Assembly (NCBI RefSeq): GCF_041222825.1
Contig: NZ_CP139482.1
Coordinates: forward strand, 3,539,501-3,603,500
From: Candidatus Thalassolituus haligoni
GTDB lineage: Bacteria; Pseudomonadota; Gammaproteobacteria; Pseudomonadales; Oceanobacteraceae
DNA length: 64,000 bases
Direction: 5' to 3'
Under the pieces are notes generated by a model. That model was not told where the DNA came from. It saw nothing but the letters and a program-made list of their open reading frames with translations, and did not search any database. Shown here piece after piece: positions 13,602 through 41,261 of the stretch. The translations under genes and the position numbers were made by a program. How positions within the stretch are numbered: position 1 is the stretch's first letter; every line of letters begins with the position of its first letter.

Positions 13602-13617
13602 TGTCGTATTTACGACA
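13602..13617. promoter_or_regulatory. NifA upstream activator site
   Basis: TGTCGTATTTACGACA is a near-perfect palindrome matching TGT-N10-ACA. It lies 131 bases upstream of the candidate sigma54 promoter of the ankyrin-modBC unit. The identical 16-mer recurs at 38459-38474. Confidence 0.75.
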
Positions 13618-16341: not shown

Positions 16342-16632
16342 TCAGTCGCTTTCGCCCCACAGATAATCGTCTATTTCTTTCATCAGAAAAGCATTGTCTT
16401 TCAGGTTGGCGGCCAGTGTTTCCGCTTCGTCACGACTGTAGCCGTAGAGGTTAAAACTGGTTGTACCAGCGGTATCACCATCGTACGACATATGCACAAA
16501 CAACAACCAATTGTCTGACTCCGAGGTGGGCTTCAGCTCGATGATGGCGCGCAGCTTGCCTTCGAGCTGGAGTAAATAGTGGCTGCTGGTTATCTCCGGG
16601 TTTGACCCGGCAAGGGTGATGTTTTTTGTCAT
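16342..16632 (-). CDS. Uncharacterised 96-aa protein at the end of the nif accessory tail
   Basis: The 96-residue acidic protein (MTKNITLAGSNPEITSSHYL) has no signal peptide or membrane segment. It overlaps the hemerythrin gene by 4 bases (ATGA), so it is the last gene of the long nifH transcription unit. A central beta-rich part (SHYLLQLEGKLRAIIELKP) is followed by a helical C-terminus (SRDEAETLAANLKDNAFLMK). No family is recognised. Coupling to nif genes suggests a nitrogenase-linked role. Confidence 0.7.
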   Translation of the reverse strand: MTKNITLAGSNPEITSSHYLLQLEGKLRAIIELKPTSESDNWLLFVHMSYDGDTAGTTSFNLYGYSRDEAETLAANLKDNAFLMKEIDDYLWGESD

Positions 16633-17021
16633 ACCTGGCTCCGTTTCAGGTGCTCCACCAGTGCGGCATCCATAGTGGTTACGTGGAGATCGAACCAGCC
16701 GGGTAGTTGTTCCAGAACGTAGGCGCGACCAAAGCTGACACGGCCACTTTCGACACGGGCACGGAAATTGGTCATTTCGCCCAGTACCCGGTTATGTTCA
16801 CCCCGGTGTTCAGTGCAGGCAGGGTAGCTCGATTGCACCATCAGGGTATTTTCACGTTCAAAGTGATGGCTCAGGTGATCGGTCAGTTGGCCAAATTGCT
16901 GGATAAATTCGGCGCCTGAAGCGGCCTCCAACCGGGCTAGCCATTCGGTAAACTCTTGGTGATCACCATCAATATCGGTATGTCCCAAGGTCAGAGGGAC
17001 AGGGATTGGGCGGCTTGTCAT
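16629..17021 (-). CDS. Bacteriohemerythrin in the nif operon
   Basis: The 130-residue cytoplasmic hemerythrin-like protein carries the di-iron ligand pattern: H21 (DIDGDHQEF), H53 and E57 (HHFERE), H72 and H76 (HRGEH), H113 and D118 (HVTTMD). Hemerythrins bind O2 reversibly at a di-iron site and can buffer or deliver oxygen. Its start overlaps the stop of the TPR gene by one base (TAATG), and its end overlaps the 96-aa gene, so it is translationally embedded in the nif accessory unit. Protection of nitrogenase from O2 is a reasonable inference. Confidence 0.85.
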   Translation of the reverse strand: MTSRPIPVPLTLGHTDIDGDHQEFTEWLARLEAASGAEFIQQFGQLTDHLSHHFERENTLMVQSSYPACTEHRGEHNRVLGEMTNFRARVESGRVSFGRAYVLEQLPGWFDLHVTTMDAALVEHLKRSQV

Positions 17022-25250: not shown

Positions 25251-25368
25251 CGCAAGGGCGGGCACGGGCAGAACCGTCACCGGCAGCTGCCGTTCTGGCG
25301 TGAATATTGAAGCAGCCGCAGTAACGCTTAGACGATTTACCCAAAATGACGACAGAGAGGAATCCCAC

Positions 25369-26220
25369 ATGGCAAGCTCGGAGCTTCTGCAAACACTGAC
25401 CAACGGTCTGCGCACAGGGCAGATTATCCCTTACCTGGGCGCAGGAACATTAAACGGTGTCGTAGAAACCACCACTGGCGAAGCGATTCCAGCCGACAGT
25501 GACAGCCTGATATTGGCAATGAATGACGGCAAACCCATGGCCCCGCGATTGATGTACGAATTTCCCCGTGCAGCAATGAATCTGGAAAACAAGAAAGGCC
25601 GCAAGTTTATCGAGCGTTTTCTGACCACCCAGTACGGCGAACGCCAATGGAGCCAGTCTTCCTTCCACCAGTGGCTGGCCACGATGGAATTGCCCTACAT
25701 CGTTGATATCAATCGCGATACCCAGCTACAAAATGCTTACCAGGGCCGCGCCCATACACTGATTGTAGGTATCTCGCGGATTGCCGGAACAGACTATCGT
25801 TTCCGAATTTTCCAGTCCGATGGCAATGAATACAGCGAAATAGACCAGGCCAGCGTCGACACTCAGCTGCCCGTACTGTTCAAACCAATGGGTACACCGG
25901 TTCCCGATCCTTGTTACATTGCCTCCGACGCCGACTACGTTGATTACATCACCGAACTGATGGGTGGCTTCGCCATTCCTGGTTTCCTCAAGGAATATCG
26001 CCAGGGCAAACAGTACCTGTTCGCCGGTATACGGATGCAACGGGATACCGAGCGTATGGTACTGAGCGATATGATCTACAACGCTGGTGAACCTGCTGGT
26101 TGGGTACTGATGCCGGAGCCTAATGACAAGGAACGTCGCTTTTGCGACAAAAAGAATCTGGTGATTGTTGAAGCCGATTTCAGCGATCTGATGGCCGAAG
26201 CACAAGCCTTGTCTGCCTGA
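25369..26220 (+). CDS. SIR2-like domain protein divergent from nifH
   Basis: ATG at 25369 follows AGAGAGG; an upstream in-frame ATG at 25300 lacks such a site. The 283-residue product starts with a helical segment and then GQIIPYLGAGTLNGV, resembling the GAG nucleotide-binding loop of SIR2-like proteins. No zinc-binding CxxC pairs of classical sirtuins are present, so it may be an NAD-binding or NAD-hydrolysing SIR2-like domain rather than a deacetylase. It is transcribed away from nifH and ends at a hairpin. A link to nitrogenase control or defence is possible; the family assignment rests on one motif and general layout. Confidence 0.58.
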   Translation: MASSELLQTLTNGLRTGQIIPYLGAGTLNGVVETTTGEAIPADSDSLILAMNDGKPMAPRLMYEFPRAAMNLENKKGRKFIERFLTTQYGERQWSQSSFHQWLATMELPYIVDINRDTQLQNAYQGRAHTLIVGISRIAGTDYRFRIFQSDGNEYSEIDQASVDTQLPVLFKPMGTPVPDPCYIASDADYVDYITELMGGFAIPGFLKEYRQGKQYLFAGIRMQRDTERMVLSDMIYNAGEPAGWVLMPEPNDKERRFCDKKNLVIVEADFSDLMAEAQALSA

Positions 26221-37654: not shown

Positions 37655-37698
37655 AAAACAACCAGTAAACGGACAGCGGCTGAACCCTGTCCACTATA

Positions 37699-37733
37699 TT
37701 GACCGCTGCATGAATCATCCATGCAGTGGTCAA
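37699..37733. terminator. Strong hairpin between convergent glgP and 187-aa gene
   Basis: TTGACCGCTGCATG (37699-37712) pairs over 14 positions with CATGCAGTGGTCAA (37720-37733), with one G-T wobble and a 7-base loop. It probably ends transcription from both sides. Confidence 0.7.
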
Positions 37734-37758
37734 TTCAAGGAACAAAACAACCTGACAA

Positions 37759-38322
37759 TTACAAGGCGCCGTGAATCTCACGAACGGCAGAGTTGGTCAT
37801 GGTCATTGCTTCTTCCAGTGATGTCAGCGGGTACTTCTTCGGCTTGTAGCCTTTCAGTTCGGCGTACATGGTTTCCAGCTTGGCGGCTGGCTTCTGGCCT
37901 TTAAAATCGCTTTTTTCCAGAGCCAGCTCTTCCATCAATTCGTTCCAGGGGACACCCTGAACCATAGGAATCAGCACAAAGTTGATGCCATTGATGTCGA
38001 CTTGCACCGGGCTTTTCAGGTTGACAACAAACAGCACAGCCTTCATATCCGGTGCAAAATCACCCCCGTAGAAGTCGACCAGTCCAGGAATGGACGCCAT
38101 TTTGTCGAGTGCACCAACAAACATATGAATCTTGTCATCTGCCAGGATCACGGCTTCCCGCATAATTTCCTTGGGTGGCAGAGTATGGCCTTTGTCGTCC
38201 CCTATTTCACCGGCAACGATCACCAGATCGCCGCGATAAGCCAGCAGGCCGGATTCACTGGTTGCCTCCAGAAAGTTGGAGTAGAACAAACGCCCGGTTT
38301 CTTTATAGGTAGTAAGCAGCAT
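37759..38322 (-). CDS. Uncharacterised NifA-regulated 187-aa protein
   Basis: The 187-residue soluble protein (MLLTTYKETGRLFYSNFLEA) has no signal peptide, membrane helix or cysteine motif. It appears to be a mixed alpha/beta domain (LLAYRGDLVIVAGEIGDDKG, DDKIHMFVGALDKMASIPGL, MKAVLFVVNLKSPVQVDING) with a basic helical C-terminus (TMYAELKGYKPKKYPLTSLE). ATG is preceded by AGGA. Its upstream region carries a sigma54-like element and two perfect NifA sites, so expression under nitrogen-fixing conditions is strongly implied. It is monocistronic between a terminator and the glycogen operon. I do not recognise the family; a role in nitrogenase physiology or protection is inference. Confidence 0.82.
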   Translation of the reverse strand: MLLTTYKETGRLFYSNFLEATSESGLLAYRGDLVIVAGEIGDDKGHTLPPKEIMREAVILADDKIHMFVGALDKMASIPGLVDFYGGDFAPDMKAVLFVVNLKSPVQVDINGINFVLIPMVQGVPWNELMEELALEKSDFKGQKPAAKLETMYAELKGYKPKKYPLTSLEEAMTMTNSAVREIHGAL

Positions 38323-38363
38323 GGTAGTTTCCTGTTGAAAGTGATGATTACCTGCTATTTGCT

Positions 38364-38379
38364 TTCAAGAATCCTGCCG
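38364..38379 (-). promoter_or_regulatory. Candidate sigma54 promoter of 187-aa gene
   Basis: On the minus strand CGGCAGGATTCTTGAA matches TGGCACG-N4-TTGCA except at three positions; the -12 is GA instead of GC. It lies 41 bases before the start codon and about 80 bases downstream of the nearer NifA site. Confidence 0.55.
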
Positions 38380-38458
38380 CCTTGCGGCGCAAGGACTTCT
38401 TAAAAAATCCTTAAAAATCATAGCGTTATAATTCAACAAAAAAAGCACATGGTAATTA

Positions 38459-38474
38459 TGTCGTATTTACGACA
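38459..38474. promoter_or_regulatory. NifA upstream activator site 1 of 187-aa gene
   Basis: TGTCGTATTTACGACA fits TGT-N10-ACA and is identical to the site at 13602-13617 upstream of ankyrin-modBC. Confidence 0.8.
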
Positions 38475-38518
38475 CAACGCTGCCGACGCTATCCGACAAA
38501 GCGGACACAACCCAGAGC

Positions 38519-38534
38519 TGTCGGATTTGCGACA
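38519..38534. promoter_or_regulatory. NifA upstream activator site 2 of 187-aa gene
   Basis: TGTCGGATTTGCGACA fits TGT-N10-ACA and begins 60 bases from site 1, close to six helical turns, so both could face the same side of the DNA. Confidence 0.75.
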
Positions 38535-38605: not shown

Positions 38606-38654
38606 CCAACCTGCCGGAACAGCAGGTTGGCTGGAATAGAGAGGACTGCTATTC
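38606..38654. repeat. Two adjacent hairpins in nafY2-187-aa gap
   Basis: CCAACCTG/CAGGTTGG (38606-38613 and 38623-38630) and GAATAG/CTATTC (38634-38639 and 38649-38654) are short inverted repeats. The rest of the 38323-38894 gap holds NifA sites and a terminator but no credible gene. Confidence 0.4.
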
Positions 38655-38743
38655 AGAGAACATCTATTTAATCCGGTGCCCGCTCTGGGCTTTCGGATGG
38701 TGTCGTATCACGAAGCCGGTTTGCAGGCCTGACGAGTCGCGTC

Positions 38744-38766
38744 AAAAACCGGCGACACCGAGCCGG
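38744..38766 (-). terminator. Candidate terminator of the nifB operon
   Basis: Read on the minus strand, CCGGC, an 8-base loop and GCCGG are followed by TTTTT, about 130 bases after the nafY2 stop. The stem is short but GC-rich. Confidence 0.5.
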
Positions 38767-38894
38767 AATCATCCGGCCGCCCCGTAGAGCGCGGGTTGCC
38801 GAATTTGAAAAGGACTCGTCATTTCGCTGCATTCGCCGCCTTGCCCTGATCACCGATCAACACTCGCGCAGAGAGGATTAAATAGATGTCCCCT

Positions 38895-39608
38895 TCAAGC
38901 TTCTTTAGCGAACCGTACCCGATCTTCGGCTGATACGCCCAGAATCTTGGCCAGCCAGGGCGGAGGAGAGTTTTCCATCACCCCCTGCAAACGCATAAGT
39001 ACCTCACTGGCCTCGCAGACGTCTTTTTGCTTGATCGGATATACGCCCGCACGCACGACCTTGGCTGCAGCCGGGCCGCCTATCGATTGCACATACGCCA
39101 CTTGACAGTCATTGATCAGGCTAGCGCGAAAGGCATTGCGATCATCCGACAAGTCAGCTTCCAGCGCCGAACGTACGTCCACCAGCTGAAATTCGCTGGC
39201 ACTCAACTGATACACCAGAAAACGCAGGCAGGAACCAAAATGGCCGTTGAGCAACTCGCCACTATTGGAAGCCACAGCCACCCGGATGGAATTGGGCATA
39301 TCACCGGCTCCCGCTACGGGTTGTGGCAAATCTTCCTCTTCATTCTCACCCCAAAGAATCCGTACGGCTTCCTTGATAGCTGGCAGGCCAAGACTGATGT
39401 CTTCACCATCCTCTTCACCATCGGCACTGCCAAAGCCGGTTTTCAAATCCGTGACCGTGATCGTCGCCAGAGATTCTTCCGACAGATCGCCATCTATTCG
39501 GCGGGTAAGAATATCCAGCAACTGGCCAATGCTGATATCCGGCAGAATGCGGGCAGCCATGGCTATTCGAAGAGCCGCTTCGCGGCTGATAGGCGGTAAT
39601 TCACTCAT
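38895..39608 (-). CDS. Second NafY-family protein
   Basis: ATG at 39608 follows GGAG; the upstream in-frame ATG at 39626 has no ribosome site. The 237-residue product has the NafY layout: a helical N-terminal domain (REAALRIAMAARILPDISIG) then a PF02579 cofactor-binding domain (NSIRVAVASNSGELLNGHFG, RFLVYQLSASEFQLVDVRSA), ending ENSPPPWLAKIL. The copy at 19441-20163 has near-identical landmarks (PPPWLLKIMEASA), so these are paralogues with an acidic linker difference (EEDGEDISLG). It is the last gene of the nifB unit, separated from bolA by three palindromes. It may bind NifB-co, FeMo-co or apodinitrogenase. Confidence 0.82.
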   Translation of the reverse strand: MSELPPISREAALRIAMAARILPDISIGQLLDILTRRIDGDLSEESLATITVTDLKTGFGSADGEEDGEDISLGLPAIKEAVRILWGENEEEDLPQPVAGAGDMPNSIRVAVASNSGELLNGHFGSCLRFLVYQLSASEFQLVDVRSALEADLSDDRNAFRASLINDCQVAYVQSIGGPAAAKVVRAGVYPIKQKDVCEASEVLMRLQGVMENSPPPWLAKILGVSAEDRVRFAKEA

Positions 39609-39694
39609 CGCTAGTCTCCATCTCATTATTGGGTGCCGACGAGTCGGCCAAACGGCATGTCATCTCATCATAACTGGGCACCTCACCACGCTTG

Positions 39695-40414: not shown

Positions 40415-41206
40415 TCAGGCGACAAAGCGATTAACCGGGTGGTTATCCGGCAGAATGTGGTGTTGCAGCAGGCGTAAGGTACTGGTACTGGCGGCAACGT
40501 CGAGTACCGAGAAGTCATCCAGCGTGGTCGGTGAGGTATCAGCACCGGCCTCCAGCAGTTGTGCAACCAGTGGGTTATGACCAATAGAAACGGCGTAAAT
40601 CAGCGCCGTCGCACCGTGGTCATTTTGCTGGTCCATATCAATATCGTTATCGAGCAATAGTTTGACGATACGAGCGTTTTTACTGTGGCATGCCATCCAG
40701 AGGGCGTTATTACCATCCTTGTTAACCAGATCGATACCCGCACCGGCCATCACCAACTCGTGGGCGATGGCAAAATTACCTTCCCGACAAGCCTGCATCA
40801 GCGCTGTGTTCTGGTTGTCACCACGCTGGTCAAGATTGGTCGGATCAAATTCGTTGTCGACCAGCCAGCCACACAGTTCGTGGCTGATAGCATCAAGCGG
40901 ACGGCTGATGCTCGGATACCAGGCTTCATAGCCACCATCAAGGCTGTAACAGCTGGTAAAGCCGAAGTCACTGAACAGCTGTGCCATATCCTGACTGGCG
41001 TGGCCGTGATAGCAGTAGATCAACACCGGCACGGAGCGCGCGGTATGTTTGATCAAGGCGCGCAAATTACTGTCATTCAGATGCAGCGCAGCAGGATGAT
41101 GACCCGACAGATAAGAACGGAAATCACGCATGTCAAGCAGCAACATAGGGCCGTCATATAACATCGCTTCAGCTTCGGTAACGGACAGGGTTTGCCATTG
41201 AGTCAT
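40415..41206 (-). CDS. rhdN: Rhodanese-ankyrin fusion (RhdN-like)
   Basis: ATG at 41206 follows GAGGAG; an in-frame start at 41236 is less likely. The 263-residue product has an N-terminal rhodanese domain (about 1-100) with active-site Cys in VLIYCYHGHASQDMAQLFSD, able to carry persulfide sulfur. A C-terminal ankyrin domain follows (about 115-255; NTALMQACREGNFAIAHELV, NALWMACHSKNARIVKLLLD, ATALIYAVSIGHNPLVAQLL). The ankyrin part is closely similar to the separate protein encoded before modBC. The gene order nifQ-rhodanese-grx matches A. vinelandii nifQ-rhdN-grx5; sulfur delivery for Fe-S clusters is likely. Confidence 0.88.
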   Translation of the reverse strand: MTQWQTLSVTEAEAMLYDGPMLLLDMRDFRSYLSGHHPAALHLNDSNLRALIKHTARSVPVLIYCYHGHASQDMAQLFSDFGFTSCYSLDGGYEAWYPSISRPLDAISHELCGWLVDNEFDPTNLDQRGDNQNTALMQACREGNFAIAHELVMAGAGIDLVNKDGNNALWMACHSKNARIVKLLLDNDIDMDQQNDHGATALIYAVSIGHNPLVAQLLEAGADTSPTTLDDFSVLDVAASTSTLRLLQHHILPDNHPVNRFVA

Positions 41207-41261
41207 GGTGATCTCCTCTTCCAGAAAAATGGTCATTGATGGATTAATGGGTCATTCGAAA

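Follow-up and report, generated by a model that had tools for sequence, protein, structure and literature searches.

A 187-residue protein encoded beside the nif genes of Candidatus Thalassolituus haligoni: very probable NifA/sigma54 control and a possible accessory role in nitrogen fixation

PnfA (PST1325) of Pseudomonas stutzeri A1501 is the product of a NifA-sigma54-dependent "hypothetical" gene beside nifHDK, which was called diazotroph-specific. According to the available part of that publication (PMC2820453) nitrogenase activity in a pnfA mutant was 23% and nifH was transcribed normally, and PnfA is needed for full nitrogenase activity under microaerobic conditions. A comparable case is azo0536 of Azoarcus olearius BH72, an unnamed nif-cluster gene located downstream of draT together with dcrH1; it has predicted RpoN and NifA sites and stands in a list of NifA-regulated genes (available parts of PMC3916325 and PMC8467165), and the available portion of the Tn-Seq text of PMC9769520 contains no mention of it. 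Here we analyse a gene for a 187-residue protein that resembles azo0536 by description, in its nif-cluster context and its RpoN/NifA sites. It lies in a stretch of 64,000 nucleotides of Candidatus Thalassolituus haligoni (contig NZ_CP139482.1, positions 3,539,501 to 3,603,500, forward strand), which is called the window in the following.

Our data make it very likely that this gene belongs to the NifA/sigma54 regulon. An earlier sequence-only reading had put it forward as a strong candidate for an undescribed member of the nitrogen-fixation regulon, and this proposal is supported by the occurrence of the family, with one exception, in genomes with nifH, by the promoters of 16 out of 32 homologues, and by data from nifA mutants of relatives. 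Published expression tables already list such relatives under the label "hypothetical protein", so that it is the family with its role that has gone undescribed.

Family membership and co-occurrence with nitrogen fixation

The open reading frame was confirmed and is conserved across homologues. Searches of Pfam, NCBIfam, PHROG and PADLOC gave no family match for the window protein, and no Pfam or NCBIfam family exceeded the curated cut-off. A set of 45 members gave two Pfam rows (E about 0.008, one member each) and no NCBIfam rows, and a set of 67 members gave weak Pfam rows only, the best being Tic22 (E 0.0019, 5 members). With the window protein as query 160 homologues were found, and with the divergent homologue from locus L013 as query 2,190, the best named of which is from Methylococcus mesophilus. 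A profile of the 45 members retrieved 2,135 proteins at E 0.001 or better among 7,998 candidates scored. The two subfamilies are homologous, as seen from an hhalign probability of 98.9% (E 2e-17).

We then compared the distribution of the family with that of nifH, which was called at E 1e-80 or better; 26 of the 274 genomes scanned in the class have it. With the combined profile 9 carriers were found among these 274 genomes. All 9 have nifH, and none of the 248 genomes lacking nifH carries the gene (Fisher 1.5e-10); a narrower profile found 7 carriers, again all with nifH. In the phylum, 13 of 398 genomes matched, and the 12 besides the window's own all have nifH. Five further carrier genomes were identified via named loci, one of which (L002) is from nearly the same organism as the window; nifH was found in 4 of the five. 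It had been suggested to check whether homologues occur only in diazotrophs: this is the case for 9/9 carriers of the class and 12/12 further carriers, with a single metagenome-assembled genome (MAG) as exception among the five. Occurrence together with nif genes, as expected for a member of the regulon, is seen in both the class and the phylum scan, apart from this MAG. In one genome of the phylum (G461) about 28 kb separate two family copies of the same contig (L044 and L045), and the L044 copy adjoins broken-up IscN- and Rieske-like stretches.

Published expression data and promoters

Strong dependence on nifA is documented for relatives. Table 1 of PMC8305402, the part of that paper used here, lists 142 symbiotic-plasmid genes of Paraburkholderia phymatum, which lives in symbiosis with bean, in nodules of a nifA mutant versus the wild type. 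Two of these genes, Bphy_7752 and Bphy_7807, encode homologues of the window protein, and their printed levels in nifA-mutant nodules were changed by −11.54 and −11.11 log2, respectively, as compared to −7.40 for nifH and −10.05 for nifD. After them the sorted table has no further numeric values, just 11 NA rows. In Bradyrhizobium diazoefficiens, bll1754 was placed in the family by location and not by sequence: it has the Rieske-type blr1753 on one side and the iscN homologue blr1755 on the other, a layout that matches loci L052 (Bradyrhizobium), L039 and L045. As printed in Table 2 of PMC6515984 the bll1754 protein reached a log2 value of 6.2 in microoxia, and the same paper gives a 120.9-fold transcript level in bacteroids, with 96.2 for nifH. 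Table 3 of PMC4926349 lists bll1754 at −4.8 log2 in nifA-mutant nodules.

Upstream regions were inspected for a TGT-N10-ACA upstream activating sequence (UAS) located 72–126 bp before a GG-N10-GC (−24/−12) element. Such a pair precedes 16 of the 32 homologues, while 0.22 would be expected from dinucleotide shuffles; as a rough control, 339 long open reading frames of the same nif-rich loci included 30 with the pair. In two cases a long distance separates the element from the start codon (230 bp in L012, 193 bp in L057). Three copies lacking a nif gene of the reference set within 5.5 kb have the complete pair as well (L018/L011, L035/L023 and L061/L057), one of them (L061) with modAB-like genes 2–3 kb from the family gene. 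The homologues that did not pass include the window gene and its counterpart in Oceanobacter sp. 1_MG-2023 (locus L003), both imperfect at −12. Six have the sigma54 element only (both P. phymatum copies, Cupriavidus, L010, L022 and L032), and eight have neither element, five of which follow a gene on the same strand (L013, L027, L050, L051 and L058). A promoter signal beyond chance is thus obtained from the comparison across homologues, and not from the upstream region of the window gene alone. NifA control of the family is supported by these promoters together with the nifA-mutant data for the P. phymatum homologues and, by position, for bll1754.

The control region of the window gene (Table 1) had been described as a full NifA/sigma54 region. 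Two TGT-N10-ACA sites are indeed present at enhancer distance, their starts 60 bases apart, and the near one is identical over 16 bases to positions 13602-13617. For the latter, said to lie upstream of ankyrin-modBC, a ModB-like match was found nearby. In this window TGT-N10-ACA alone means little, since it occurs 23 times versus 19.2 expected, and 23 was reached in 20 of 100 shuffles. The sigma54-like element CGGCAGGATTCTTGAA matches 9 of 12 fixed positions and has GA in place of the GC at −12 (TTGA for TTGC). It therefore fails the strict GG-N10-GC rule, and the word "full" has to be dropped. Oceanobacter sp. 1_MG-2023 retains the element in the form CGGCAAGATTCTTGAA, and its distance to the near UAS is identical there. 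A ribosome-site-like AGGA was confirmed, and the proposed terminator is represented by an inverted repeat that has no T run and was not listed by the terminator scan. It is the relatives, and not the control region in the window itself, that give the case for regulon membership its strength.

Table 1. Positions of the family gene, its control elements and the adjoining gene in the window
Feature	Position	Strand	Remarks
Family gene	37759..38322	-	Open reading frame; 187-aa protein, 20.6 kDa, isoelectric point 5.0, no cysteine
Inverted repeat	37698..37734		18 nt, 89% complementary; between convergent gene ends; possible two-way terminator, no T run
Ribosome-site-like sequence AGGA	38330..38333	-	Before ATG 38322; AACAGGAAA also in Oceanobacter sp. 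1_MG-2023
Sigma54-like −24/−12 element CGGCAGGATTCTTGAA	38364..38379	-	79 bp from near UAS; imperfect at −12; conserved in Oceanobacter sp. 1_MG-2023
Near NifA-type UAS TGTCGTAAATACGACA (read on -)	38459..38474		−152 from ATG; identical to 13602-13617; position kept in Oceanobacter sp. 1_MG-2023
Far NifA-type UAS TGT-N10-ACA	38519..38534		−212 from ATG; not conserved in Oceanobacter sp. 1_MG-2023
NifX-like gene, upstream of family gene	38895..39626	-	End of nifB-nifO-nifQ-rhodanese/ankyrin-Grx4-NifX-like run

The promoter of the family gene is separated from the NifX-like gene by a repeat of about 240 bp, at 38640-38900, that resembles a miniature inverted-repeat transposable element (MITE), with 20-nt inverted arms at 38655-38674 and 38875-38894. 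It has 43 matches in its own genome, itself included. The spacer is about 295 bp in Oceanobacter sp. 1_MG-2023 versus 572 in the window, and since it is shorter, that genome would not hold the repeat here.

Gene neighbourhood

In the window the family gene comes after a run of nifL, nifA, nifB, nifO, nifQ, a rhodanese-ankyrin gene, Grx4 and the NifX-like gene, and it converges with the gene for glycogen phosphorylase. Genes of nif or nif-cluster type are found within 5.5 kb of the family gene in 26 of 32 loci; the loci lacking them are L007, L018, L035, L041 (a 4-kb contig), L048 and L061. In seven loci (L014, L033, L046, L047, L050, L051 and L060) the gene is part of a unit transcribed away from nifH. 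The immediate neighbours vary and include a Rieske protein, NifO, nitroreductase, ankyrin and rhodanese proteins, DraT/DraG and IscN.

Several other genes of the window are mentioned here in their own right. At 25300-26220 (+), divergent from nifH, a place occupied by PnfA in P. stutzeri, a 306-residue protein with a SIR2_2 domain is encoded, and similar genes are present in L017, L045, L051 and L052. Inside the nif run, at 40415-41236 (-), a rhodanese domain is fused to ankyrin repeats; ankyrin genes repeatedly adjoin the family gene in Paraburkholderia and Cupriavidus. A gene encoding a hemerythrin-domain protein, with a small unnamed gene as its partner, occurs at 16629-17021 (-) of the window, at 7160-7788 of L004 and at 4031-4720 of L007. 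In Amphritea and Marinagarivorans the family gene comes directly after this pair, which in the window is close to the modB match.

Possible functions of the protein

Very probably belonging to the NifA/sigma54 regulon, the window gene may encode a soluble accessory protein of nitrogen fixation; taken as a whole, with the mode of action outlined below, this explanation is quite possible and slightly less than an even matter. As to what such a protein does, we tentatively prefer protection or maintenance of nitrogenase to the alternatives discussed below. Several points favour a binding protein of this kind: the small size of the window protein, its lack of cysteine, an induction of relatives that equals that of the nitrogenase genes, the absence of the gene from many nifH genomes, and the oxygen-carrier genes that adjoin it in some loci. 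The family protein would be expressed under NifA/sigma54 control alongside the nitrogenase genes and would act after nitrogenase is made. Being cysteine-free, it would be a probably non-redox binding protein that may keep nitrogenase or the Fe protein intact under low and fluctuating oxygen, working beside oxygen-binding proteins such as bacteriohemerythrin or truncated haemoglobin.

A gene for one of these two oxygen carriers was found within 1.5 kb of the family gene in 9 loci (Pfam check run on 5 of the proteins). These belong to the 11 loci with an oxygen-carrier gene, and about 2 would be expected from random placement, in a test that was post hoc, as the query genes were picked after being seen beside the family gene, and on loci that are centred on this gene and not phylogenetically independent. 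With the second Amphritea left out, adjacency was seen in 8 of 10 loci. The presence of two unrelated oxygen carriers in two branches favours an oxygen-related role; the adjacency is a lead and not proof.

The design of this test weighs against the proposed protection, as do several other observations. Adjacency to an oxygen carrier is limited to 9 of 33 loci, and the window's own hemerythrin gene is about 21 kb from the family gene. No ligand motif was recognised in the family protein, and the search of solved structures with models of both subfamilies gave no significant match, which does not by itself prove a new fold. Regarding regulation, 16 of the 32 homologues fail the promoter rule, the window element is imperfect at −12, and in the available part of PMC6515984 the entry of bll1754 under the NifA+RpoN1/2 regulon of Hauser et al. 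2007 is "-". Nor is the gene universal, as no copy was found in 17 of the 26 nifH genomes of the class at this sensitivity. Finally, the MAG of Marinagarivorans has the gene, and nifH, nifB and nifA were not detected over the cut-off. Its gene order is modABC-like genes, a DUF2750 gene, hemerythrin, the small unnamed gene and then the family gene. The nif contigs of this MAG may simply be missing, since window and Amphritea share the context of hemerythrin and small gene.

The best-surviving alternative, which we consider rather unlikely, is that the protein helps to build or load nitrogenase by delivery of Fe-S, Mo or FeMo-cofactor, beside IscN/NifU, NifX-like, NifQ/NifO and Mod proteins. IscN-type genes adjoin the family gene in Bradyrhizobium and L042, and modAB is present within 4 kb in L007, L040 and L061. 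In L019 the gene directly precedes rhodanese and NifX-like genes, and in the window it comes after the NifX-like gene. No assembly partner is constant across loci, however, and the 45 members lack the conserved cysteines typical of iron-sulfur or thiol-redox nif proteins: any cysteine is present in only 28 of them. A thiol cluster binding or thiol redox role is disfavoured because the window protein has none.

The protein might regulate processes such as NifL/NifA signalling or the modification of the Fe protein by DraT/DraG, but this appears improbable. The draT/draG genes adjoin the family gene in L033 and L060 and are near in L019, but no nifL was found in two 18-kb stretches of P. phymatum. 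Strict dependence on DraT/DraG is excluded, because the window's own genome has no DraT; among carriers 11 of 21 have it, versus 6 of 17 nifH genomes lacking the family gene.

We regard it as equally improbable that the protein works on a small molecule or nucleic acid, be it as an enzyme or with a degenerate nuclease-like fold. In the 45 members R30, G31 and K141 are invariant and D42, P50, G70, N101, E128 and K148 nearly so, and K137 is a further conserved residue of the alignment; R30, D42, N101, E128, K137, K141 and K148 would suit this view, as would a (D/E)xK triplet that 41 of the 45 members have at 139-141. With AlphaFold2 the two subfamilies gave confident models (mean pLDDT, the predicted local distance difference test score, 93.2 and 91.6), which are nearly identical in the order of their elements. 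Both models repeatedly gave weak structural rows to Can2, McrC, VC1899 and EcoT38I, which we take to be proteins of the PD-(D/E)XK fold. For such a fold one would expect a significant score together with the catalytic motif, and only weak rows and the triplet were seen.

That the gene merely sits near nif as a passenger and has no part in nitrogen fixation, as might be suggested by the mere 9 carriers among the 26 nifH genomes of the class and by the one MAG carrier lacking nifH, is very improbable in view of its absence from all 248 nifH-less genomes of the class, the complete promoter in three copies away from nif genes, and the nifA dependence in two genera (P. phymatum and, by position, B. 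diazoefficiens bll1754; printed tables cited above).

Going beyond the preferred protection of nitrogenase by the window protein, one may think of an unnamed class of nitrogenase safeguards across alpha-, beta- and gammaproteobacterial diazotrophs, a generalisation that we regard as doubtful. Its members would not conserve cysteine, would be induced to the level of nitrogenase and in several lineages share an upstream region with nifH, and would repeatedly be paired with unrelated oxygen carriers, hemerythrin in one branch and truncated haemoglobin in another. By binding nitrogenase or the Fe protein they would protect it in microoxia or restore its activity, and their fold may have no solved relative.

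The family would add a widespread and strongly NifA-dependent component to the long-studied parts list of nitrogen fixation, which is being moved into new hosts. In the printed table its P. phymatum members end the sorted nifA-mutant list, yet neither Pfam nor NCBIfam was found to have a model for it. Since members are open to deletion in tractable strains of P. phymatum, B. diazoefficiens and Methylococcus, they would allow a direct test of the old question of how nitrogenase survives near oxygen.

Among the known nif-cluster genes DraT/DraG, NifO, NifX-like, Rieske, truncated haemoglobin and hemerythrin are recurrent neighbours of the family gene and belong to families different from this one. 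By its description in the available part of PMC2820453, PnfA is probably set apart as well, as it has 31.7 kDa and partial similarity to UspA/ETF-alpha, versus 20.6 kDa for the window protein. PnfA and the window protein are therefore probably different, and PnfA is a precedent of the same kind.
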